Shown piece by piece: positions 13,528 through 34,114 of a stretch of DNA of 64,000 bases. Source of the DNA: Allobosea sp. (GTDB lineage Bacteria > Pseudomonadota > Alphaproteobacteria > Rhizobiales > Beijerinckiaceae); NCBI RefSeq assembly GCF_017308015.1, contig NZ_JAFKFW010000018.1, positions 1-64,000 of the forward strand, given 5' to 3'. The notes beneath the pieces were generated by a model. It worked only from the letters and a program-made list of their open reading frames with translations, was not told the origin of the DNA and did not search any database. Position 1 is the stretch's first letter; every line of letters begins with the position of its first letter. A program made the translations under genes and the position numbers.

Positions 13528-13541
13528 TTGATCGGTCTCAA
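13528..13541 (+). promoter_or_regulatory. putative FixK/Fnr site upstream of beta-CASP nuclease gene
   Basis: TTGAT-CGGT-CTCAA, one mismatch from the Fnr/FixK consensus TTGAT-N4-ATCAA. It is centred about 81 bases upstream of the ATG at 13616, which suits an activator site near -41 with a leader of about 40 bases. It is one of six such sites in the island. Confidence 0.5.
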
Positions 13542-13615: not shown

Positions 13616-15223
13616 ATGCCAGAGGCGAATATTCAACAGCAAACGGGGATCAGCCTCTGCTTTCACGGGGCGGCCCATGCTGTCACCGGCTCCTGCTTCG
13701 CGCTTCAGACGGACGAGGCTCGCATCCTGGTCGATTGCGGAATGTTCCAAGGGTCGAAGTCTGAAAAGGAACTGAACTACCGGGAGTTTCCTTTCGACCC
13801 CGCATCAATCGACGCAGTCCTCCTGACGCATGCTCATATCGATCACAGCGGATTGTTGCCCAAGCTGGCGAAGGACGGCTTCCAGGGGCCGATATTCGCG
13901 ACTGCGGCGACGATCGATCTCTGCTCGGTGATGTTGCCCGATTCCGGTCATATCCAGGAAATGGAGGTTGAGCAGCTCAACCGAAGAAACGCGCGTCGAG
14001 GCCGGGCGGCGGTAGAAGCGATCTACGGGGCCGAGCAGGCCATCACGACGCTGACGCAGTTTCGTGCCGTTCCGCTCGGCAGGCTGATGGAAATCGCCAA
14101 AGGGATTCGGGCGCGATACTGGGACGCTGGCCATCTGCTCGGTTCGGCCTCCATCGAGGTCGAGATCGACAGACCCGGCCGTGTTCCCCTTCGGATACTT
14201 TTCTCGGGTGATATCGGCTCGAGCCTCAAACCGTTCCACGCCGATCCGGCCAGCCCAGAAGGGGTCGACTACGTCATCTGCGAGACGACTTATGGCGACG
14301 TCGATCGGGAAGACGTTACGCTCGACCAACGCCTGATGTTGCTGCAAGCAGAGGTAACGGCCGCGGCCGGGCTTTCGGGGCCGCTCCTCATTCCCTCCTT
14401 TGCCGTCGAACGGACCCAGGAACTCCTCGTGGATCTTGTCCACCTGATGACGATGGGCCGCATCCCGGCGGCGCCGATCTTCGTCGATTCACCCCTTGCG
14501 ACCAAGGCCAGCGCGATCTTCGAGAAACACGCTGGCGAGATGGCCAATGGCCAAGCCTTGCTGGAGGCGTTGCGGGATCCACGGGTCCGGTTCACGGAAT
14601 CCGTCGAGCAGAGCAAGGCCATCGACCGCATCCGCGGCTTTCACATCGTGATAGCGGCGAGCGGCATGTGCGATGCCGGGCGCATTCGGCATCATTTGAA
14701 GGAATGGCTGTGGCGTGGCGCCGCGACGATCCTGTTCGTCGGCTTCCAGGCGCAGGGGACGCTCGGTCGAATCCTCCTCGACGGCGCCCGCCATGTGCGG
14801 TTGATGGGCGAGGACGTCCAGGTGAAGGCCCGCATTCGCTCGCTCGACCTCTACTCCGGCCATGCTGACGGGCCTCAGCTCGCTGCCTGGATCGCGAAGC
14901 GGCGGCCGATCTCCGGTTCGGTTTTTCTGACGCATGGCGAGGAGCTGGCTCTGCGAGGTTTTGCGGGCAGGTTGAAGAACCTGGACTCCGGGCTGCATGT
15001 CATCGAGCCTGCGCTAGACAGCGTCTTCGCGCTCCCGGGTGGAGCGCCTCGCCAGATCGGCGGGCCGGTCCGCAGCGCGGCAGAAAGCGCAGGGCGGCTC
15101 GATTGGCATAATGAATTGTCCAGCCTGATCCTCGATATCGACGAGCAGATGTCGCTGGCAGCGGACGAACGCGCACGGAAACAGATCGTCAGACGGTTGC
15201 GGAAAGCTCTCGCATCCGAGTGA
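13616..15223 (+). CDS. beta-CASP metallo-beta-lactamase-fold RNA-processing hydrolase
   Basis: A 535-residue protein of the MBL-fold/beta-CASP/RMMBL type (predicted RNA nuclease or mRNA 3'-end-processing-factor relative). The metal-binding motif THAHIDHSG is near residue 70, with the following motifs in order: GDIGSS near residue 200, LIPSFAVERTQELL near 260, the ASGMCDAGRIRHHL block near 345, and the Zn-dependent YSGHADGPQL motif near 415. The C-terminal 60 residues are a charged extension beyond the usual 450-470-residue core. Relatives are often encoded next to phosphoketolase and stress genes in proteobacteria, as here. A possible FixK site lies upstream. The RNA target is unknown. Confidence 0.87.
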   Translation: MPEANIQQQTGISLCFHGAAHAVTGSCFALQTDEARILVDCGMFQGSKSEKELNYREFPFDPASIDAVLLTHAHIDHSGLLPKLAKDGFQGPIFATAATIDLCSVMLPDSGHIQEMEVEQLNRRNARRGRAAVEAIYGAEQAITTLTQFRAVPLGRLMEIAKGIRARYWDAGHLLGSASIEVEIDRPGRVPLRILFSGDIGSSLKPFHADPASPEGVDYVICETTYGDVDREDVTLDQRLMLLQAEVTAAAGLSGPLLIPSFAVERTQELLVDLVHLMTMGRIPAAPIFVDSPLATKASAIFEKHAGEMANGQALLEALRDPRVRFTESVEQSKAIDRIRGFHIVIAASGMCDAGRIRHHLKEWLWRGAATILFVGFQAQGTLGRILLDGARHVRLMGEDVQVKARIRSLDLYSGHADGPQLAAWIAKRRPISGSVFLTHGEELALRGFAGRLKNLDSGLHVIEPALDSVFALPGGAPRQIGGPVRSAAESAGRLDWHNELSSLILDIDEQMSLAADERARKQIVRRLRKALASE

Positions 15224-15494: not shown

Positions 15495-15508
15495 TTGATC
15501 CGCGTCAA
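15495..15508 (-). promoter_or_regulatory. putative FixK/Fnr site upstream of the small 57-residue protein
   Basis: TTGAT-CCGC-GTCAA, matching the FixK consensus TTGA[TC]-N4-[AG]TCAA. It is centred 62 bases upstream of the minus-strand ATG at 15439. A second site lies exactly 100 bases to the right and serves the divergent gene. Confidence 0.6.
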
Positions 15509-15594: not shown

Positions 15595-15608
15595 TTGATG
15601 AGAATCAA
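15595..15608 (+). promoter_or_regulatory. FixK/Fnr site upstream of APH-like/AAA kinase gene
   Basis: TTGAT-GAGA-ATCAA, a perfect match to the Fnr/FixK consensus. It is centred about 58 bases upstream of the ATG at 15660. Activation from a site near -41 would give a leader of roughly 17-20 bases. Confidence 0.7.
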
Positions 15609-15659
15609 GGTCGCCTCGTGGGATCGGAGAATAGTGGAGCGATCGATCGGAGCCTCGTC

Positions 15660-17246
15660 ATGCCGATGACCAGCCAGAACGAAACGATCTGCTTTCTGGG
15701 GTCGGCAGGCGCTTTCGGGGGCGGGGCTGAGTGGATGGAAATGGTCTCCACCCACATCTCGATCGTTCTGCTGATTGGTTCGCGCGCGCTCAAACTGAAA
15801 CGATCCGTCACGCTGCCCTATGTTGATCTATCGACGCCCGAACGGCGGCTGGCATTGTGCGAGCAAGAACTGATGCTCAACCGCCGGGCGGCTCCGAAAT
15901 TGTATCGCGGGGTTCACCGGATCACCCGGGAGCTGAACGGTGCCCTGACGTTGAATGGCCAGGGCGAGCTGGTCGATGCCGTGCTGGAAATGGAACGCTT
16001 CAACGATAATTTCCTCTTCGATCGAATGGCGGAGAGAGAGCGTCTCTCCGCTTCTGACATGGCCGAGTTGGCCGGCGCGATCGCGCGTCTCCACCAGGTA
16101 GCTCCGGTCTCGACGGATGAAGCGGGGGCTGCGCGGATGAAACGCGTGCTGACCGTCAATGAGAGAGCATTTGCCAATGCGGATATTCTCCCTCGCAGCG
16201 AAGTCGACGCCGTCATCACGGGCTGCCGGGAGGCGCTGGCCCACCATACGGACTTGCTGAACCGGAGGGCGCGCGAGGGAAAGGTTCGGCGCGGACATGG
16301 TGACCTGCACTTGCGCAACATCTGCCTGTTCGACGGCAAGCCGTTGCTCTTCGATTGTCTCGAGTTCGACGAGGACCTGGCGACCGTGGATGTCCTCTAT
16401 GATCTCGCCTTCGTTCTGATGGATCTCTGGCATCGCAAGCTCGAAACGCTCGCGAACATCCTCTTCAATCGCTATCTTGATACCACTGACGATGAGAGGG
16501 GCATCCGCCTGATGCCGTTCTTCATGGCGGTGAGGGCTGCCGTGCGAGCGCATGTCATCGCGGTCGATAGCGGCAGGTCCGAGACTTCCCGCTTGGCCGC
16601 GGCGCGAAGCTATCTGGAGCTCTGCCGCCGCCTTCTGACGACGCAGCTTCCCGTCCTGGTCGCGGTCGGTGGCTATTCGGGTTCGGGGAAATCGACGGTT
16701 GCGGCGAAGCTCGCGCCAACGCTGGGACCTCCCCCGGGCGCCCGCATAGCTGCCAGCGATCGCATTCGGAAGAAACTGTGGGGTGTTTCGGCAGAGACCC
16801 GCCTGCCGATGGAGGCCTATGGCGCGGACGCCGCCGCACGAACCTATGCGGCCATGATGCAGCTTGCGGAACTGATGCTGGCGCAAGGCCATGCTGTTGT
16901 CGCGGATGCCGTCTTCGATCGGCGGGTCGATCGGGAGAGGATCGGGGAGGTGGCGCGGCGCGCAGGCATGCCGTTCTACGGCCTTTGGCTCCAGGCACCG
17001 AAAGATACGCTCGTGCAACGGGTGACAGAGCGTCGTGGCGATCCCTCCGACGCTACCCCCAGCGTCGTGATCGACCAGATTTCGCGGCATGGAGCCGCAA
17101 AGGAGTGGACGCGCATCTCGGCGCAGGAGAACATCGATATCGTCGCCGGATGCGCTCTTGCAGCCATCGGCTCTCAGGCTGGAGCGGCGGCAGTCTGGCC
17201 GAGCCCTCCCTGCGCGCGGCGATGGGCGCCGTCAGTGACGGCATAG
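15660..17246 (+). CDS. aminoglycoside-phosphotransferase-like / AAA-type kinase fusion protein
   Basis: About 528 residues with two halves. The N-terminal half is APH-kinase-like, with the catalytic loop GHGDLHLRNICLFDG and then FDCLEFDEDLATVDVLYDLAF, including the metal-binding Asp. The C-terminal half is a P-loop kinase with GGYSGSGKST and a zeta-toxin/gluconate-kinase-like fold. The family is often labelled a bifunctional aminoglycoside phosphotransferase/ATP-binding protein; its substrate is not known and drug resistance should not be assumed. The ATG at 15660 is chosen because it fits the FixK site at 15595-15608; a GTG at 15618 would begin almost on top of the site. Confidence 0.8.
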   Translation: MPMTSQNETICFLGSAGAFGGGAEWMEMVSTHISIVLLIGSRALKLKRSVTLPYVDLSTPERRLALCEQELMLNRRAAPKLYRGVHRITRELNGALTLNGQGELVDAVLEMERFNDNFLFDRMAERERLSASDMAELAGAIARLHQVAPVSTDEAGAARMKRVLTVNERAFANADILPRSEVDAVITGCREALAHHTDLLNRRAREGKVRRGHGDLHLRNICLFDGKPLLFDCLEFDEDLATVDVLYDLAFVLMDLWHRKLETLANILFNRYLDTTDDERGIRLMPFFMAVRAAVRAHVIAVDSGRSETSRLAAARSYLELCRRLLTTQLPVLVAVGGYSGSGKSTVAAKLAPTLGPPPGARIAASDRIRKKLWGVSAETRLPMEAYGADAAARTYAAMMQLAELMLAQGHAVVADAVFDRRVDRERIGEVARRAGMPFYGLWLQAPKDTLVQRVTERRGDPSDATPSVVIDQISRHGAAKEWTRISAQENIDIVAGCALAAIGSQAGAAAVWPSPPCARRWAPSVTA

Positions 17247-17270: not shown

Positions 17271-19184
17271 TCAATCGAGGAGGCTGCGCAAGCGTGTGGC
17301 CAGCTCCTGCGCAGTGTACGGTTTCTTCAACCAGCTTCCCTCCGCCAGCCCGCGCCCGGCGAGGCTTGGCTCGGCATAGCCGGAGGTGAAGAGAACCTTC
17401 AGGTTCGGGCGAAGACTGCGGGCCTCTCTGGCAAGCTCGTCGCCGAACATGCCGCCCGGCATGATAATATCGGTAAAGAGCAGCCGGATTTCCGGGTGCG
17501 CGGCGATGATCGACAGCGCCTCCCTGCCATCGGCAGCCTGGATGACGCGATACCCTTCCGCTTCGAGGCGCGCGATGACGACCCTCCGCACGCGGGCATC
17601 GTCTTCGACCACGAGGATGCATTCGTCAGCGTGCGGCTTGCTTGAAGGAACAGGGTCGACGTTGTCCGTTTCTTCGCCGGGCTCCGGAGTGGGGGCCGGG
17701 AGAAACAGCCGAACGGTCGTTCCTTCGTCGGGCTCGCTGTAGAGTTGCACATGGCCGCCCGATTGACGTGCGAAACCGTAGACCATGCTGAGGCCGAGCC
17801 CGGTTCCCGCGCCGACACCTTTCGTGGTGAAGAAGGGGTCGAACGCCCGTTGCTGGACCTCTTCCGTCATCCCGACACCGGTATCAGAGACGCTGATAAG
17901 GATATAGTCGCCCAGTCGAACCTGCGGGTACATCTGGACATAATCGCGGTCGAGGTGAATGCGCGCGATTTCGACCTTGAGATGTCCGCCGCGCGGCATG
18001 GCGTCCCGGGCGTTCAGCGCAAGATTCAGCAAAGCATTCTGCAACTGGGTGGTGTCGACGAGCGCCGACAGGGAATGGCCGGTGGCGACGGTCTGCAATT
18101 CGATCGTTTCGCCAAGTGTCCTCCGCAGCAGCTCGGCGAAGGTCGACACGAGCTGTCCTATGTCCGTGAGCTTCGCATTGAGGGCTTGCCGCCGGCCGAA
18201 AGCTAGAAGCTGGCCCGTGAGCTTGGCTCCGTCATCGGCCGCGTCTTGGGCCTCGCGCAACAATTCGCGGAGCCGGCCGTCTTCGAGACGCCGTTCGATC
18301 ATCTCGAGGTTTCCACTGATCACCCCCAGCAGGTTGTTGAAATCATGCGCGATCCCTCCCGTAAGCTGCCCGATGGCCTCCATTTTCTGGGACTGCCGCA
18401 ATTCCTCCTCCATCCGGTGACGACTGGTCAGGTCGCGGATGAAGCCGGTGAAGATGCGCTTGCCGTTTGCGGCGGCCTCGCCAACCGCGAGTTCCATGGG
18501 AAAGGTCGTTCCGTCTTTTCGCCGGCCGGTGACCACGCGCCCGAAGCCGATGATCCGCCGCTCGCCGGTCGCGAGGTAGCGGCCGATATACCCGTCGTGC
18601 CGATCCCGGTCGGGGTTGGGCATGAGGATCTTGACGTTTCGGCCGCAGACCTCGTCGGCGGTATAGCCGAACAGCTTCTCCGCAGCCTTGCTGAACGACA
18701 TCATGATACCGGCTTCGTCGATCACGACCATTGCTTCCGGCACCGTTTCGAGAATCGAGAGCAGGTGTGATTGCCGGGAGGCGAGAGCAGCCTGTGCGTT
18801 CTTCAGGTCGCTGATATCGATATTCGTAGCCAGGACGACCATGTTTTCCGGCGCTTGCCGGCTCACGACGACCCAGCGGCTCATGACGAATATCGACCGT
18901 CCTTCTCTGTGGTGCTGCGTCAGCTCGCCTTTCCAGGTCCCAGCCTGACGCACGGCCCGGATGATGTCGTCGAGTGGCTCCGGAAAATCCGTCTTGAGAA
19001 GTTGGCGGACGTTCTGCTCGAGCGCCTCGCGTGCAGTCCAACCGTAGAGATCCTCGCAGCCCCCGCTCCAGCGAAGAATTCTGCCGTCGAGCTCGAAAAC
19101 GATGATGTTGGCATCGTCGAGAACCTGAACGATCTCGTCCAGGCTTCGCTGGCTGATCGCCCTTGGCCCGCGCGCTGCCGTCAT
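17271..19184 (-). CDS. hybrid histidine kinase with FixL-type heme PAS domain and receiver
   Basis: A 637-residue soluble sensor kinase. The order is PAS (about 15-125), second PAS (about 140-255), HisKA with GGIAHDFNNLLG (phospho-His near 280), HATPase (about 385-500) and a C-terminal receiver whose phospho-acceptor is Asp572 in FTDIIMPG. The second PAS closely resembles the Bradyrhizobium FixL heme domain. It keeps the proximal heme His (H196 in RHDGYIGRY) and the two distal-side arginines at +6 (R202) and +20 (R216), corresponding to FixL H200, R206 and R220. It should therefore bind heme and sense O2. The gene is downstream of, and nearly touching, the FixK-like gene, so the two form an operon. 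A GTG at 19190 is an alternative start. Confidence 0.88.
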   Translation of the reverse strand: MTAARGPRAISQRSLDEIVQVLDDANIIVFELDGRILRWSGGCEDLYGWTAREALEQNVRQLLKTDFPEPLDDIIRAVRQAGTWKGELTQHHREGRSIFVMSRWVVVSRQAPENMVVLATNIDISDLKNAQAALASRQSHLLSILETVPEAMVVIDEAGIMMSFSKAAEKLFGYTADEVCGRNVKILMPNPDRDRHDGYIGRYLATGERRIIGFGRVVTGRRKDGTTFPMELAVGEAAANGKRIFTGFIRDLTSRHRMEEELRQSQKMEAIGQLTGGIAHDFNNLLGVISGNLEMIERRLEDGRLRELLREAQDAADDGAKLTGQLLAFGRRQALNAKLTDIGQLVSTFAELLRRTLGETIELQTVATGHSLSALVDTTQLQNALLNLALNARDAMPRGGHLKVEIARIHLDRDYVQMYPQVRLGDYILISVSDTGVGMTEEVQQRAFDPFFTTKGVGAGTGLGLSMVYGFARQSGGHVQLYSEPDEGTTVRLFLPAPTPEPGEETDNVDPVPSSKPHADECILVVEDDARVRRVVIARLEAEGYRVIQAADGREALSIIAAHPEIRLLFTDIIMPGGMFGDELAREARSLRPNLKVLFTSGYAEPSLAGRGLAEGSWLKKPYTAQELATRLRSLLD

Positions 19185-19193
19185 AGCCACCTG

Positions 19194-19946
19194 TCAATGC
19201 GCTCGCATGGCCTGTCGGCCAGGAGGAGTGCCGCTCGGATCATCGTATTCGTCACCGCTGCCGGCAAGTCTTCTCAAGAGTGCCGGCTTGCGTATCGTGA
19301 AGCGGTAGCGCGCGATGGACTGAATGACGCCCCGCTTGATCAGGTTCGTCATCGTTCTCGACACCGTTTCGATCGTCAGACCCAGATAATCTGCCATGTC
19401 GACGCGACTCATCGGGATTTCGATCTCGGTGGCCGGGCCGCTATCGTCGCCGGCGCGCCGCGCAAGCGCGAGGAGGAGATCGCAAATGCGCTCTTCGGCA
19501 TTCTTGCGCGCGAGCAATACGGTTCTCGCCTGTGCGCTTGCCATTTCGCGGTACAGCCAGTTGACGAATTGCGGGCGCAATTGTTCCGAGCTGTCGACCG
19601 CCTGCTGAAAGCGGTTCCGATGTAATCGGCGGAGCTTGACGTCACCGATGGCCTCGGCGTCACCGAGATAACGTTCGTCTGGAGAAAGACCGAAGATTTC
19701 GTCGGGATAGAAGAACCCGGTGATAACGCGGCTGCCATCGCTGAGGATTTTGGCAATGCGGACGATCCCGGCCACGATCTTGAAGACATGCGTTGCCGGA
19801 TCGCCGTCCCGGCAAACGGTTTGGCCACGCCCGAACGTCTCCAGAGGCTGCTGACTGAAGAGCCCCAGCAATCCGGGTCTTGCTCGATCGTTCGCGATAA
19901 CGGGCAGCGGGGCATGGAAGCTCGACGCCGCGTTGACAGTGAGCAT
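19194..19946 (-). CDS. Crp/Fnr family regulator, FixK-like
   Basis: A 250-residue regulator with an N-terminal cyclic-nucleotide-like beta-barrel (about 30-140) and a C-terminal winged helix. The recognition helix reads GLTIETVSRTMTNL. E193, S196 and R197 correspond to the Fnr/FixK residues that read TTGAT half-sites. The Fnr Fe-S cysteine cluster is absent (I see only one N-terminal Cys), so it is unlikely to sense oxygen itself, and FixK-like is the better label. It is followed by the heme-PAS kinase gene. TTGAT-N4-ATCAA-like sites found around the island are its probable targets. Confidence 0.88.
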   Translation of the reverse strand: MLTVNAASSFHAPLPVIANDRARPGLLGLFSQQPLETFGRGQTVCRDGDPATHVFKIVAGIVRIAKILSDGSRVITGFFYPDEIFGLSPDERYLGDAEAIGDVKLRRLHRNRFQQAVDSSEQLRPQFVNWLYREMASAQARTVLLARKNAEERICDLLLALARRAGDDSGPATEIEIPMSRVDMADYLGLTIETVSRTMTNLIKRGVIQSIARYRFTIRKPALLRRLAGSGDEYDDPSGTPPGRQAMRAH

Positions 19947-20035
19947 GGCGCTATCCTCCGCACCGGTTTGACGCGGAGAGGAAAGCGGCGGTGCATGGCG
20001 CTGCGAAGGTCTGCGTGTTAGCGTCTGTCGAAAAT

Positions 20036-20052
20036 TGTTACCGATTGTAACA
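20036..20052. promoter_or_regulatory. 17-base perfect palindrome between the two regulator genes
   Basis: TGTTAC-CGATT-GTAACA, six-base arms with a five-base spacer. It sits about 90 bases upstream of the FixK-like start (19946, minus) and 33-49 bases upstream of the response-regulator ATG at 20085. It is a strong candidate operator for one of the adjacent regulators; it does not match the TTGAT-type FixK site. Confidence 0.5.
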
Positions 20053-20084
20053 TCTGATCCGTGGCCCGATTGGTGCTTTCTGCC

Positions 20085-20828
20085 ATGGCCGACCCGACAT
20101 CCCGAAGCGCTCATCTTCTGGTCGTGGACGACGATCAGCGCATACGCCAGATGCTGATCCGCTATTTCGAGGAGGAGGGCTACCATGTCAGCGCGGTGGC
20201 CGACGGGCGGGGAATGCGGGACGCGTTGCAGCGCAATGCTATCGACATCGTCCTGCTCGACCTGATCCTCGGTGGCGGCGAGGACGGATTGATGCTGGCC
20301 CGTGAAATTCGTACGGGCTCGGACGTTCCAATCATCATGCTGACCGGGCGGGGCGATGTCGTCGACCGCATCGTCGGACTTGAGATGGGGGCCGATGATT
20401 ATATCGCCAAACCGTTCCATTTGCGCGAGGTGCTGGCGAGGGTGCGCACTGTATTACGTCGGCAGCACCCAGTGCCGGTTCAACTGGTTGGTGGTGAAGG
20501 CGCAGAAGTCATTCGGTTCAATGGATGGACGCTCGACCCTCAGGAGCGCCGGTTGCTCAATCCGGAAGGAACGGATGTCGCGCTGACGACGGGAGAATTC
20601 AATATTCTTTTGGTGATGGCCAAGTATCCAGGTCGCGTTTACTCGCGCGATACGTTGATGAATTTGACGAGGGGCCGAAATTACGAGGCTTTTGATCGAG
20701 CGATCGACGCTCAAATCTCTCGTCTGCGTAAGAAGATTGAAGTGGGCCACAATCCAGCGGCTCTGATCAGATCCGTACGCGGGGTTGGGTACGTCTTCAC
20801 GGGGCACTCCTCTGCACGAACGGGTTGA
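20085..20828 (+). CDS. OmpR-type response regulator
   Basis: A 247-residue two-domain regulator. The receiver (about 5-120) starts HLLVVDDDQRIRQML and has the phospho-acceptor Asp in DIVLLDLILGG and the conserved Lys in DDYIAKPF. The C-terminal domain is a winged helix of the OmpR/PhoB kind (GEFNILLVMAKYPGRVYSRDTL, then RAIDAQISRLRKKIE). The ATG at 20085 is preferred over GTG 20061. It is divergent from the FixK-like/heme-kinase operon and may be the output partner of that hybrid kinase. This would replace the LuxR-type FixJ of classical systems; the pairing is inferred only from position. Confidence 0.85.
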   Translation: MADPTSRSAHLLVVDDDQRIRQMLIRYFEEEGYHVSAVADGRGMRDALQRNAIDIVLLDLILGGGEDGLMLAREIRTGSDVPIIMLTGRGDVVDRIVGLEMGADDYIAKPFHLREVLARVRTVLRRQHPVPVQLVGGEGAEVIRFNGWTLDPQERRLLNPEGTDVALTTGEFNILLVMAKYPGRVYSRDTLMNLTRGRNYEAFDRAIDAQISRLRKKIEVGHNPAALIRSVRGVGYVFTGHSSARTG

Positions 20829-20914: not shown

Positions 20915-21460
20915 TCAGGAGTTTTCCTGCGGCGCGAACCACATGCGCCTCAGCAGGCCGTCTCTCCGTACAAATTGATGATAAAGTGCCGCGACGGCGT
21001 GAGCCGCGGCGAGAATGAGTAGCCCGTTGGCGGCAAGCTCATGCCAGCCATTGATGGAGCGGCGCAGAGATCGATCCTCGGGGGCAAAGCCCGGAATCTG
21101 CACGATGCCGAACAGGTCCCAGCCTCTGGCTGCCACATTGACGATACCGAGAACGAGCGTTGTGGCGAGGAGAGCATATAGGAGCCCGTGCGTGATCCGT
21201 TCCGCCAGTCGAAGCACCCCGGCATTGATCGATACAGGGCGTGTCGCGGATGACATCAGCCAGAGCAGGCGGGCGCAATAGACCAGGACCAGGACCGTTC
21301 CGGCCGTGATGTGGAACGACCACATGCCATGGCGCCACTCGCGCGGCAGCAGAGCCTCGCTTTGAGCCATCAGCCACAGCAGCAGGACGAGCGCGGCGGT
21401 CAGCCAATGGAAGACGATGCTGGGTCTGTCATATCGAGCTTGTTCGGGATTGTGCTGCAT
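20915..21460 (-). CDS. cytochrome b561-family membrane protein
   Basis: A 181-residue four-helix membrane protein of the prokaryotic cytochrome b561 family. Candidate heme ligands are H18 (VFHWL), H50 (WSFHITAG), H91 (RITHGLLY) and H154 (AAAHAVAALYH). It would move electrons between a quinol and a partner in the inner membrane. The gene begins 15 bases after the mbfA-like gene in the same direction, so the two form an operon. That raises the possibility that it supplies or accepts electrons during iron storage or release; this is inference. Confidence 0.85.
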   Translation of the reverse strand: MQHNPEQARYDRPSIVFHWLTAALVLLLWLMAQSEALLPREWRHGMWSFHITAGTVLVLVYCARLLWLMSSATRPVSINAGVLRLAERITHGLLYALLATTLVLGIVNVAARGWDLFGIVQIPGFAPEDRSLRRSINGWHELAANGLLILAAAHAVAALYHQFVRRDGLLRRMWFAPQENS

Positions 21461-21475
21461 AAGGACCTCGCTCGG

Positions 21476-22465
21476 TCACGAGCCGCCGATGAGAATGCCT
21501 GTGGCCAGGACGAGAAGTCCTCCCAGGATGATCTGGAACATCGCCCGACCGATGGGAGTCTCCATGAAACGGTTTTGGATCCAGACAATGACCCACAGCT
21601 CGACGAAAACCACGCAGAGCGCGATGGCCGTCGCGGTCCAGAAATGCGGGATGAGGTAGGGGAGTGCGTGTCCCAAACCACCGATCGTCGTCATGACACC
21701 GGAGGCCAGCCCGCGTTTCCAGGGCGGGCCGCGTCCCGACAGCTTGCCATCGTCATGAGCCGCTTCGGTGAACCCCATCGAGATGCCCGCGCCGATCGAA
21801 GCAGACAGGCCGATCAGGAAGGTCGTCCACGGGTTCTGCGTGGCGAAGGCCGTTGCAAAGATCGGTGCCAGGGTCGAAACCGAACCGTCCATCAACCCCG
21901 CGAGGCCGGGCTGAACCCAGGTCAGCACGAACTGGCGCTTGGCCTGCTCCTGCTCGGCCTTTCCTTCGTCGCCGGTTGTCAGTTCACCTTCGAGAGACAA
22001 AGCCTTGCGCTCGTGCTGCGCTTCTGCGGCTGCGAGATCTCCGAGCAATTTCCGCGTTTCCGCATCCGTGCTGCGCGAAGCTGCCAGCCGGTAAAAGGTT
22101 TCCGCCTGACGCTCCATGTCGGCGGCATCCGCCCGGGCACGTTCCAGGGGCAGCGATTTCACCAGCCACAGGGGTTTTCGTGCATAGAACCCTTCGACAT
22201 GCTCCCGGCGAATTGGGATGATGGTTGGACCGAACCGGCGCACATAGAGATCGAGCAAGGCGCTGCGATGCTCATTTTCTTCCGCAGCCATGGCATCGAA
22301 CATCGCGGCCGATGCGGGATAGTCATGGCTCAGGTTGGCTGCATAGGCCGAGTAGATGCGTCCATCCTCTTCCTCCGCCAGGATCGCGAGTGAGAGAACT
22401 TCCTGCGTACTGAGGTCATCGAACCGCCTCCGGGCAGGTCGAAACATCGAGAAGAGAGCGGGCAT
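21476..22465 (-). CDS. mbfA: membrane-bound ferritin-like iron exporter (MbfA, erythrin-VIT1)
   Basis: A protein of about 329 residues. The N-terminal ferritin-like diiron domain (to about residue 165) has Glu/His motifs in ILAEEEDG, AEENEHRSAL and AEAQHERKAL. The C-terminal VIT1/CCC1-like membrane domain (about 175-325) contains PGLAGLMDGSVSTLAP and SMGFTEAAHDDG. This is the architecture of Bradyrhizobium/Agrobacterium MbfA, an inner-membrane iron(II) exporter protecting against iron and peroxide stress. The ATG at 22465 is used; a TTG at 22483 is possible. A perfect ICE-type palindrome is centred about 39 bases upstream of the ATG, predicting repression by Irr under low iron. Confidence 0.88.
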   Translation of the reverse strand: MPALFSMFRPARRRFDDLSTQEVLSLAILAEEEDGRIYSAYAANLSHDYPASAAMFDAMAAEENEHRSALLDLYVRRFGPTIIPIRREHVEGFYARKPLWLVKSLPLERARADAADMERQAETFYRLAASRSTDAETRKLLGDLAAAEAQHERKALSLEGELTTGDEGKAEQEQAKRQFVLTWVQPGLAGLMDGSVSTLAPIFATAFATQNPWTTFLIGLSASIGAGISMGFTEAAHDDGKLSGRGPPWKRGLASGVMTTIGGLGHALPYLIPHFWTATAIALCVVFVELWVIVWIQNRFMETPIGRAMFQIILGGLLVLATGILIGGS

Positions 22466-22495
22466 GGCGATATCCAGGGCCAATTTATGCAGTTC

Positions 22496-22512
22496 TTTAG
22501 AATCAATCTAAA
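22496..22512 (-). promoter_or_regulatory. iron control element (ICE), predicted Irr site of mbfA
   Basis: TTTAGA-ATCAA-TCTAAA, a perfect 17-base palindrome with six-base arms and five-base spacer. It has the same layout as the alphaproteobacterial ICE motif (TTTAGAAC-NN-TTCTAAA). It lies just upstream of the mbfA-like gene, whose homologues in Bradyrhizobium and Agrobacterium are controlled by Irr through such a site. Confidence 0.75.
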
Positions 22513-22569
22513 CTGTAGTCCAGCCCTCGCGTAGCGTGCATTGACCGCCTGCACGGGGCAGCAGCGAAC

Positions 22570-24957
22570 TCATGTCGTGGACCAGCGCCAGTCGCGCACC
22601 TCCGGCATGTCGATGCCGTGCTCGCGGATATGGCGCTTGTGCTCGATCAGCTTGTCGCGGATCGCCTGCTTGGCGTAGGCGGCTCGCTCACCGAGTTTCG
22701 GGACCCGGTCGATGACATCGCCGACCAGGTGGAAGCGGTCGAGCCGATTGCGCACGACCATGTCGAAGGTCGTCGTCGTCGAACCTTCCTCCTCATAGCC
22801 GCGTACATGCATGTTGGCATGGTTGGTGCGCCTGTAGGCGAGCCGATGGATGAGCCAGGGATAGCCGTGATAGGCGAAGATCACCGGCTTGTCGGTTGTG
22901 AACAGGGCGTCGAATTCTGGATCGGCAAGGCCATGTGGGTGCAGCGCCTTCGGTTGCAGCGTCATCAGGTCGACGACGTTGACGACGCGGACCTTGAGAT
23001 CGGGAAGATTTTCGCGCAGCAGTTTGACCGCAGCCAGTGTTTCCAGCGTCGGCACGTCGCCGGCGCAGGCCATCACGACGTCTGGCTCGCTGCCAAGGTC
23101 GTTGCTGGCCCATTCCCAGATGCCGATGCCTTGCGAGCAGTGCTTGATCGCGGCATCCATGTCGAGCCATTGCAGGGAAGGTGCCTTGCCGGCGACGATG
23201 ACATTGATCCGGTCCCAACTCCGCAGGCAGTGATCGGTGACGTGAAGCAGCGTATTGGCATCCGGCGGCAGATAGACCCGCACGATCTCGGCCTTCTTGT
23301 TCACGACATGATCGACGAAGCCGGGGTCCTGATGGCTGAAGCCGTTATGGTCCTGCTGCCAGACATGGGAGGTCAGGAGGTAGTTCAGCGAGGCGATCGG
23401 CCGACGCCAGGGTACTTCCTTAGCGGTCTTCAGCCATTTCGCATGCTGGTTGAACATCGAATCGACGATATGGATGAAGGCCTCGTAACAGGAAAACAGG
23501 CCGTGGCGGCCGGTCAGGAGATAGCCTTCGAGCCAGCCCTGGCAGAGATGCTCGCTCAGGATTTCGGTGACACGACCGTCGCGCGTGAGGTTCTCATCTT
23601 CAGGGAGGATCTCTTCCTGCCAGGCTCGGCCCGTCACCTCGAAGAGGGCCTGCAGGCGGTTCGAGGCCGTCTCGTCCGGGCCGAAGACCCTGAAGTTCCG
23701 GCTAGCCTCGTTTGCCTTCATGACATCGCGCAGGAACGCACCCAGGATCCGGGTTGCTTCGGCCTTGGCGTCGCCTGGACGGTTCACCGGCACAGCGTGG
23801 CGGATGTAGTCCGGCATCCTGAGAGGGCGGCGCAGCGCGCCGCCATTCGCGTGCGGGTTGGCGCTCATCCGCTTCTCGCCCGATGGTGCGAGTGCGGCGA
23901 TCTCGGCATGCAGCCGCCCGGACGCGTCAAACAACTCCTCAGGACGGTAGCTGCGCAGCCAGTCTTCGAGCAGTCGCAGATGGCCGGGCTGCGACATGTC
24001 GCTGAACGGCACCTGATGCGAGCGCCAGAAGCCCTCGGTCTTCAGGCCGTCGACGGTCTTGGGACCGGTCCACCCCTTGGGACTGCGCAGCACGATCATC
24101 GGCCAGCGCGGACGACCGCGTGTTGATCCTGCGCGGGCTTCGCTCTGAATCGAAGCGATGCCGGAGAATGCCATATCGAGCGCTGTTGCCATCGCCTGGT
24201 GCATCGCCTCCGGCTCCTCGCCTTCGACGAAGAGCGGATCGTAGCCGTATCCGCGCAGCAGCGCCTCCAGCTCGGCATGAGGGATGCGGCCCAGCACGGT
24301 CGGGTTGGCGATCTTGTAGCCATTCAGGTGCAGGATCGGTAGGACCGCGCCGTCCTCCACGGGATTGAGAAATTTGTTGGAGTGCCAGGATGCGGCCAGT
24401 GGACCGGTCTCGGCCTCGCCGTCACCGATGACGCAAGCAGCAATCAGGCCGGGATTATCGAGCACGGCGCCGAAGGCGTGCGCGAGGCTATAGCCAAGCT
24501 CGCCGCCTTCGTGGATGGAGCCGGGCGTATCGGGCGCAGCGTGGCTGGGAATGCCGCCCGGGAAGGAGAACTGTCGTACGAAGCGCCGCAAGCCTTCCTG
24601 GTCCTGCGAGATGTCCGGATAGAGCTCGCTATAGGTGCCTTCGAGATAGGTGCTCGCCACCACGCCCGGAGCGCCATGACCCGGCCCGGCGATGAAAAGG
24701 ATGTCGAGATTCCGAGCTCTGATGATGCGATTGAGATGCAGATAAATGAAATTCAGGCCCGGCGCCGTGCCCCAGTGACCGAGCAACCGCGGCTTCACAT
24801 GTTCGATCCGAAGAGGTTCGCGCAACAGTGCATTGTCCAGCAGGTAGATCTGCGCCACGGAGAGGTAATTGGCGGCCCGCCACCAGACCTGCATCAACGT
24901 GATCTCTTCGGAATTCAGAGCCGTCTGCGTCACGGTATCGATGTCCCGAGAGGTCAT
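22570..24957 (-). CDS. xfp: xylulose-5-phosphate/fructose-6-phosphate phosphoketolase
   Basis: A 795-residue thiamine-diphosphate enzyme of full family length. It cleaves xylulose 5-phosphate or fructose 6-phosphate with phosphate to acetyl phosphate plus an aldose phosphate. Seen motifs are [17 protein letters not shown] near residue 60, [11 protein letters not shown] near 88, [14 protein letters not shown] near 145 and the ThDP site [14 protein letters not shown] near 178. Further downstream are [13 protein letters not shown] near 535 and PDANTLL near 560. A FixK-like site lies about 61 bases upstream. The acetyl phosphate would feed the Pta-like and acetate kinase proteins encoded at 40709-43293. 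Confidence 0.95.
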
Positions 24958-25011: not shown

Positions 25012-25025
25012 TTGATCTTCAGCAA
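25012..25025 (-). promoter_or_regulatory. xfp: putative FixK/Fnr site upstream of phosphoketolase gene
   Basis: Read on the plus strand it is TTGAT-CTTC-AGCAA, one mismatch from TTGAT-N4-ATCAA. It is centred 61 bases upstream of the minus-strand start at 24957, the same spacing as at the other sites. Confidence 0.5.
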
Positions 25026-32869: not shown

Positions 32870-32883
32870 TTGATTTTCATCAA
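32870..32883. promoter_or_regulatory. FixK/Fnr site between Usp and alcohol dehydrogenase genes
   Basis: TTGAT-TTTC-ATCAA, a perfect match to the consensus. It is centred 72 bases upstream of the Usp start (32805, minus) and 104 bases upstream of the alcohol dehydrogenase start (32981, plus). It most likely serves the Usp gene, and possibly both. Confidence 0.7.
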
Positions 32884-32980: not shown

Positions 32981-34114
32981 ATGTCGCCAGTTCTTCAATC
33001 TGATGTGAGGCCTTCGCAGGGAAACACGCGAAAGGCCCGGCCCAGGATGATGTGCGCGGCCGTATTCGTGGAGCCCGGCCGCATCGAGATCGAGGAAAAG
33101 CCGGTCCCGGATGTCGGACCGCTCGATGCGTTGCTGCGTATCACCACCACGACGATCTGCGGCACCGACGTCCATATCCTCAAGGGTGAGTATCCTGTCG
33201 CGCGCGGCCTCACCATCGGCCATGAACCGGTCGGCGTTATCGAGAAGCTCGGGTCCGAGGTGAGGGGCTTCCGGGAGGGTCAGCGCGTGATCGCCGGCGC
33301 TATAACGCCTTCCGGGCATAGCGCCGCCTGCCTCTGCGGCTGCGCCTCGCAGGATGGCGCCGACACGCGCCACGGCTTCAAGGCCATGGGCGGCTGGCGC
33401 TTCGGCAACACGATCGATGGCGCCCAGGCCGAGTATCTGCTGGTGCCGGACGCCATGGCCAATCTCGCGCATGTGCCTTCAGGGCTGACGGACGAGCAGG
33501 TCCTGATGTGTCCGGACATCATGTCGACCGGGTTCTCCGGCGCCGAAAGCGGTGGGGTCAGGATCGGCGACTGCGTCGCCATCTTTGCGCAAGGTCCGAT
33601 CGGGCTATGCGCCACGGCCGGCGCCCGGCTGATGGGCGCGACGCGCATCATCGCCGTGGAGAGCGTCCCGGAGCGACAGGCGATGGCTCGCAGGCTCGGC
33701 GCCGACGAGATCGTCGACTTTTCCAAGGGCGACCCGGTCGATGAAATCATGCGGCTCACCGATGGCAGAGGTGTCGACGTGGCGATCGAGGCCCTGGGCC
33801 GCCAGGAGACCTTCTCCGCCGCATTGCGGGTGCTGCGTCCCGGCGGAACGCTGTCGTCGCTCGGTGTCTATTCGAGCGACCTGACGATCCCGCTCGGCGC
33901 CTTCGCCGCAGGGCTTGGCGACCACCGCATCGTCACCACGCTCTGCCCCGGCGGGAAGGAACGCATGCGGCGCCTGATCGACGTCGTCGCCTCCAGCCGG
34001 GTCGATCTGGGCCCACTGGTTACGCATCGTTTCCCGCTGGAACGGATCAAGGATGCCTACGAGTTGTTTTCGCATCAGCGCGATGGTGTCCTGAAGGTCG
34101 CGATCACGCCCTGA
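32981..34114 (+). CDS. zinc-dependent secondary alcohol dehydrogenase
   Basis: A 377-residue medium-chain dehydrogenase. The catalytic zinc residues are in TTICGTDVHILKGEY and GHEPVG. The NAD(P)-binding region reads VAIFAQGPIGLCATAGARLMGA. There is no canonical structural-zinc Cys4 lobe; the block GGWRFGNTIDGAQAEYL resembles the clostridial/Thermoanaerobacter secondary-alcohol dehydrogenase group. The ATG at 32981 has GGAGAG in front; 33047 is an alternative. It probably re-oxidises NAD(P)H on aldehydes or ketones during low-oxygen growth. It is followed after 78 bases by the P-type ATPase gene. Confidence 0.85.
   Translation: MSPVLQSDVRPSQGNTRKARPRMMCAAVFVEPGRIEIEEKPVPDVGPLDALLRITTTTICGTDVHILKGEYPVARGLTIGHEPVGVIEKLGSEVRGFREGQRVIAGAITPSGHSAACLCGCASQDGADTRHGFKAMGGWRFGNTIDGAQAEYLLVPDAMANLAHVPSGLTDEQVLMCPDIMSTGFSGAESGGVRIGDCVAIFAQGPIGLCATAGARLMGATRIIAVESVPERQAMARRLGADEIVDFSKGDPVDEIMRLTDGRGVDVAIEALGRQETFSAALRVLRPGGTLSSLGVYSSDLTIPLGAFAAGLGDHRIVTTLCPGGKERMRRLIDVVASSRVDLGPLVTHRFPLERIKDAYELFSHQRDGVLKVAITP

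Follow-up and report, generated by a model that had tools for sequence, protein, structure and literature searches.

Which response regulator does a histidine kinase serve when it combines a FixL-type heme PAS domain with a receiver of its own and lies next to an OmpR-type gene? Classical FixL is paired with FixJ, whose output is of the LuxR type. The question is raised by a locus of Allobosea sp. (NCBI RefSeq assembly GCF_017308015.1, contig NZ_JAFKFW010000018.1, positions 1 to 64,000; this 64,000-nucleotide stretch is referred to as the window) in which three genes, hfixL, fixK and fxkR, lie together. The initial annotation, made from the sequence alone, had suggested a rewired oxygen-sensing pathway. 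Our analysis makes it highly probable that the locus specifies an hFixL-FxkR-FixK(f) low-oxygen cascade. The wiring from kinase to OmpR-type regulator to FixK was well supported by comparison, but it is that of hFixL-FxkR-FixK(f) in Rhizobium, and a new pathway was rejected because the same parts and operator have already been described. What the sequence itself provides is the domain layout, the key residues, the similarity to described parts, the operator match and the gene linkage.

The hfixL open reading frame (ORF; 17271-19190, minus strand) opens with a GTG codon at 19190 and encodes a hybrid kinase of 639 amino acids with the layout PAS1-PAS2(heme)-HisKA-HATPase-receiver. Pfam searches identified PAS (residues 142-253), HisKA, HATPase_c and a C-terminal Response_reg domain (residues 525-634; 17289-17618, minus strand). 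PAS1 gave a weaker signal, PAS_3 at residues 39-111 scoring above the cut-off for the protein as a whole, yet with no individual stretch passing alone. PAS2 (18432-18767, minus strand) lies within a segment, residues 139-266, that matches the FixL heme-PAS chains of the PDB (for example 1dp6, E 4.9e-44), and the heme-pocket residues of FixL are all in place: His198, Arg204 (+6) and Arg218 (+20). The phosphorylatable positions are present as well, His282 of the DHp domain within an AHDFNN box and Asp574 in the receiver. Thus, the heme histidine, the two distal arginines at their spacings, the receiver and the AHDFNN box were all found as the initial annotation had given them, and the coordinates and features it assigned to the three genes hold at the level of ORFs, Pfam domains and residues.

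The fixK gene (19194-19946, minus strand) reads from ATG to TGA and is followed after 3 nucleotides by the GTG codon of hfixL. Because of this short gap, the two genes likely form an operon, as had been proposed. The predicted protein contains a cNMP-binding and a Crp helix-turn-helix domain (Pfam), and inspection of its translation by eye revealed no N-terminal cysteine cluster of the kind that marks FnrN and FNR as Fe-S proteins. The fxkR gene (20085-20828, plus strand) is divergent from fixK-hfixL, from which a 138-bp intergenic stretch separates it. Its product is a response regulator of the OmpR/PhoB type, with a receiver and a Trans_reg_C domain. The ORF can open at 20061; however, an alignment of five sequences favours the start at 20085 (invariant M9).

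These features are those of a pathway described in Rhizobium. According to the excerpts available of PMC4999443, neither R. etli nor R. leguminosarum has FixJ, and both rely instead on hFixL, a hybrid kinase, together with the regulator FxkR and with FixKf; the available excerpts of PMC7888657 give the same pathway for R. leguminosarum 3841, together with a chromosomal fxkRc-fixKc-hfixLc cluster. They are the sources used here for the hFixL-FxkR-FixKf cascade of R. etli CFN42 (Zamorano-Sanchez 2012). FxkR is counted among the OmpR-type regulators in PMC7769827 (consulted in part), and the origin of the wiring has been assigned to the Rhizobiaceae ancestor (PMC4999443, same excerpts). Over 99% of its length, the window kinase shares 62.1% identity with the PAS kinase RHE_RS29080 of R. 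etli CFN42, whose gene follows a CRP-type gene on plasmid p42f beside ccoO/Q/P. The window FxkR is 63.1% identical to the p42f response regulator RHE_RS29195. The two organisms share a hybrid FixL with a receiver, an OmpR-type FxkR, a FixK without the Fnr cysteines, a K-box upstream of fixK, and fixK placed directly before hfixL. They differ in that the FxkR-like regulator of p42f lies about 19 kb from hfixL, and in that the R. etli cascade adjoins cco genes whereas the window cascade adjoins phosphoketolase and stress genes. The chromosomal cluster of R. leguminosarum 3841 comprises the same three genes, a likeness drawn from its description (PMC7888657, in part).

The same arrangement was found on plasmid pDG3-1g of Agrobacterium salinitolerans (NZ_CP074400.1), where fxkR is likewise divergent from fixK-hfixL with a K-box between them. 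This plasmid-borne cluster also shares with the window an adjoining phosphoketolase gene and an APH/ATP-binding gene preceded by anaeroboxes; identity to the window proteins is 64% for hFixL, 58% for FxkR and 44% for FixK. Comparison with the classical pair encoded by pSymA of Sinorhizobium meliloti 1021 gave a different picture: the heme-PAS sequence and residues are as in the window kinase, but the S. meliloti FixL has no receiver, its H-box reads AHELNQ, and FixJ lies behind it. At the window locus the kinase has a receiver and its neighbour is OmpR-type; the locus thus departs from the FixLJ pattern and conforms to the hFixL-FxkR-FixK one, with its receiver-bearing heme-PAS kinase, OmpR-type regulator, FixK free of the cysteine cluster, and palindromic K-box with one mismatch.

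The trio could belong to this family by descent and still have a PAS2 that does not sense O2, either because it holds no heme or because it responds to something else, such as NO or redox state. Two of the more distant hFixL-like kinases encoded near FxkR-like regulators do vary at the +6/+20 positions (T/Q in L042, H/L in L048), which could mean that they have lost or altered the heme pocket. We nevertheless regard this alternative as improbable for the window kinase: His198, Arg204 and Arg218 are retained in it and in all 17 close hFixL rows of the genus Bosea in the alignment, PAS2 aligns lengthwise with the FixL heme-PAS chains, and anaeroboxes cluster around the locus (see below). Over the full set of 36 aligned rows, His198 is found in 36, the +20 arginine in 34 and the +6 arginine in 27. 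The +6 position is Arg in the window kinase, His in R. etli hFixL and Asn in S. meliloti GR4. We take it to be the same position as R200 of S. meliloti FixL, variants of which have been studied (PMC10765370, consulted in part); the O2 affinity of the window hFixL could possibly differ from that of R. etli.

The choice between FxkR and FixJ as partner of the kinase was approached through gene distribution in the genus. Matches were accepted at an identity of at least 60% for hFixL, at E <= 1e-80 for FxkR and at E <= 1e-60 for FixJ. Co-occurrence of the three genes had been proposed as a check in the initial annotation. For hFixL and FxkR, 37 genomes were searched for both, and the two were found together in 11 and neither in the other 26. 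Across 61 genomes (that of the window included), FxkR occurs in 16, at 17 loci, FixJ in 14, and both in 6. At every one of the 17 FxkR loci hFixL adjoins FxkR, FixJ being present in the genome or not, and FxkR and FixJ show no association (Fisher p 0.16). Because of this constant adjacency and the lack of association with FixJ, FxkR is favoured as the partner of hFixL.

The competing idea, that the hybrid kinase works or crosstalks with a FixJ encoded elsewhere while the adjacent OmpR-type regulator answers another kinase, draws on two facts. The genome does contain a FixLJ pair, and the heme PAS of the window kinase is close to that of FixL. The initial annotation had noted that no FixJ is nearby; this is correct for the window, where no FixJ-like protein combining a receiver and a LuxR domain was found, but not for the genome as a whole, in which such a protein is encoded on contig C40 (14256-14873), directly behind a classical FixL with a heme PAS (the pair spans 4257-6414 of L031, minus strand). 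That FixL, however, has its own adjoining FixJ and a different H-box (AHEIN), and 6 of the 16 genomes with FxkR have a FixJ. FixJ as the kinase partner is thus disfavoured by the linkage to FxkR and by the lack of an FxkR-FixJ association, and we give this idea little credit, slightly less than the one concerning PAS2.

In a tree of the kinases, the two FixL rows stood apart from all hFixL-like rows and the window kinase fell with the hFixL rows of Rhizobiaceae. The 17 close genus rows grouped together with a support of 83/96, below the mark set by the tool, in a tree that contains long branches. An eighteenth genus row, L127 of genome G015, fell among more distant kinases.

The predicted FxkR operator, or K-box, occupies positions 20036-20052 between fixK and fxkR. 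Read towards fixK, the site, TGTTACCGATTGTAACA, shows one mismatch to GTTACA-N4-GTTACA, the FxkR site before fixKf in Rhizobium (PMC4999443 and PMC7888657, in the parts available); it lies 89 bp before fixK and 32 bp before fxkR. A K-box with zero to two mismatches, oriented towards fixK, was present at all 25 examined loci in which fixK adjoins hfixL, fxkR or both. This set includes the window, and in it L035 and L123 are the same locus (100% identical over 4914 bp). All three genes fall within the stretch in 22 cases, in one of which hFixL is incomplete; for L010, L012 and L126 the stretches do not include fxkR. In 24 loci the K-box lies about 73-89 bp from the FixK start, as estimated by aligning the proteins, and in the distant L128 the gap is 27 bp; L119 has a second candidate 98 bp from the FixK start. 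The K-box also lies beside fxkR in 16 of 16 congener loci. Linkage to FixK is based on the 25-locus set, which covers the congener loci L151-L153 through L123-L125 and has L145, L146 and L148-L150 outside the FixK check. That fixK is driven mainly by some other input, the K-box match being a coincidence, might be argued from the mismatch and from a palindromic form unlike the R. etli direct repeat, but it is the least probable of the alternatives, since mononucleotide shuffling of the 138-bp intergenic stretch equalled the match in only one of 5000 trials (20 came within two mismatches) and a box in the same orientation precedes fixK at every one of the 25 loci.

Several observations weigh against assigning the locus to the hFixL-FxkR-FixK cascade. 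The window K-box is a perfect palindrome, as opposed to the direct repeat of R. etli. The pattern TGTTAC-N5-GTWACA, with at most one mismatch, matches only the window K-box in the 4.89-Mb genome; still, the reversed control of this pattern matched 6 times on the forward and 8 times on the reverse strand of the genome, and 11 of 100 window shuffles contained some K-box match within two mismatches. Because the controls also yield matches, the case for the K-box is carried by its position and conservation, not by its rarity. The chromosomal cluster of R. leguminosarum 3841 is reported, in the part of PMC7888657 available, to have neither a K-box nor an anaerobox between its genes, while the window has a K-box. 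RHE_RS29195 is equated with the published FxkR by similarity and plasmid, the locus tags being unmatched. The L127 kinase of G015 is a distant, partial hFixL-like match (50%); its +6 residue is Asn, and the genome lacks a close FxkR. Finally, the genome also encodes FixLJ, with which crosstalk is possible, and FixK control of the genes discussed below is suggested by motifs in their upstream regions.

Heme and O2 binding, phosphotransfer, activation and targets can be modelled on the relatives of the window proteins. In the hFixL-FxkR-FixK cascade so envisaged, O2 bound at the PAS2 heme would keep the kinase off in air, and a fall in O2 would lead to autophosphorylation of His282. The phosphate would pass to the neighbouring OmpR-type FxkR, directly or via Asp574 of the receiver. 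Phosphorylated FxkR would bind the K-box and activate the fixK-hfixL operon; judging by the position of the K-box, it may also restrain fxkR itself. FixK would then act at TTGAT-N4-ATCAA boxes before the genes for a beta-CASP hydrolase, an APH/AAA protein, a phosphoketolase and a universal stress protein.

Such FixK/FNR-type boxes, or anaeroboxes, are concentrated in the window: five sites with at most one mismatch were found against 0.95 expected, and none of 100 shuffles reached five. Exact sites number nine in the genome, two of them in the window, and the reversed control gave none. One exact site (15595-15608) lies 51 bp before the ATG at 15660 of the APH/AAA gene, a start chosen by us within an ORF that opens at 15618; a second site upstream of this gene (15495-15508) has one mismatch. 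The other exact site (32870-32883) is about 64 bp upstream of the likely start of a universal stress protein gene (minus strand), a start placed at about 32805 in an ORF opening at 32982. Sites with one mismatch precede the beta-CASP metallo-hydrolase gene (13616-15223) by 74 bp (13528-13541) and the phosphoketolase gene (22570-24957, minus strand) by 54 bp (25012-25025). The boxes recur before the same genes, where these fall within each stretch, in the close congeners L138, L139, L145 and L146, and some of those before beta-CASP or APH genes are also found in the more distant L141, L142, L144 and L147 and in A. salinitolerans; at some congener loci, such as L143, they were not seen before these genes. 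FnrN could use the same anaeroboxes. Beyond fxkR, genes for a cytochrome b561, a rubrerythrin-VIT1 protein and the phosphoketolase lie close together (20915-24957, minus strand), and all three are also present in L145.

A regulator resembling FnrN, with N-terminal cysteines recognized by eye in its translation, is encoded before ccoN on contig C31 (L032, 5775-8429). An exact anaerobox (5817-5830 of L032) falls inside the listed ORF ahead of the cysteine-rich part, so the true start of the gene is probably later than listed. Two ccoN genes scored above the cut-off in the genome. No full-length NifH was found there; four partial matches spanning 36-105 profile positions, one of them just above the Pfam cut-off (27.9 versus 25 bits), are presumably other P-loop ATPases.

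The cascade itself is known, and the window holds a well-formed copy of it outside the Rhizobiaceae. What is added is modest: its occurrence in Bosea, in a genome with no full-length NifH match, and the clustering of FixK-type boxes at the locus. Besides the Rhizobiaceae, a second group thus carries the hFixL-FxkR-FixK wiring; there the genes stay linked, their distribution is patchy and the operator is retained, and the window's genome has a separate FixLJ in addition. As has been reported for S. meliloti, this Bosea-group genome contains both systems. Their kinases have closely similar heme-PAS sensors, and the genome is therefore convenient for studying how such kinases are kept insulated from each other. 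Bosea is mentioned in none of the three FxkR/hFixL papers among the 10 of 24 matches listed, which is no proof of its absence from print. Tentatively, and with somewhat less than even confidence, we propose a non-symbiotic use: a local module for energy and stress under low oxygen (phosphoketolase, universal stress protein and beta-CASP hydrolase, perhaps with rubrerythrin-VIT1 and cytochrome b561) operating alongside the resident FixLJ and FnrN-like regulator, so that a single free-living cell would share this work among three oxygen sensors.

Among the congeners, G017 has two diverged hFixL-FxkR loci (L139 and L140), the kinases of which are 87% and 72% identical to that of the window. In G013 and in G018, the search reported a single stop codon within the FxkR frame, matched or open. 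More distant pairs of hFixL-like and FxkR-like genes were seen in L128, L041 and L047, Devosia and Nitratireductor being among their sources. Since L128 carries an exact K-box, the family may reach beyond the Rhizobiaceae and Bosea.

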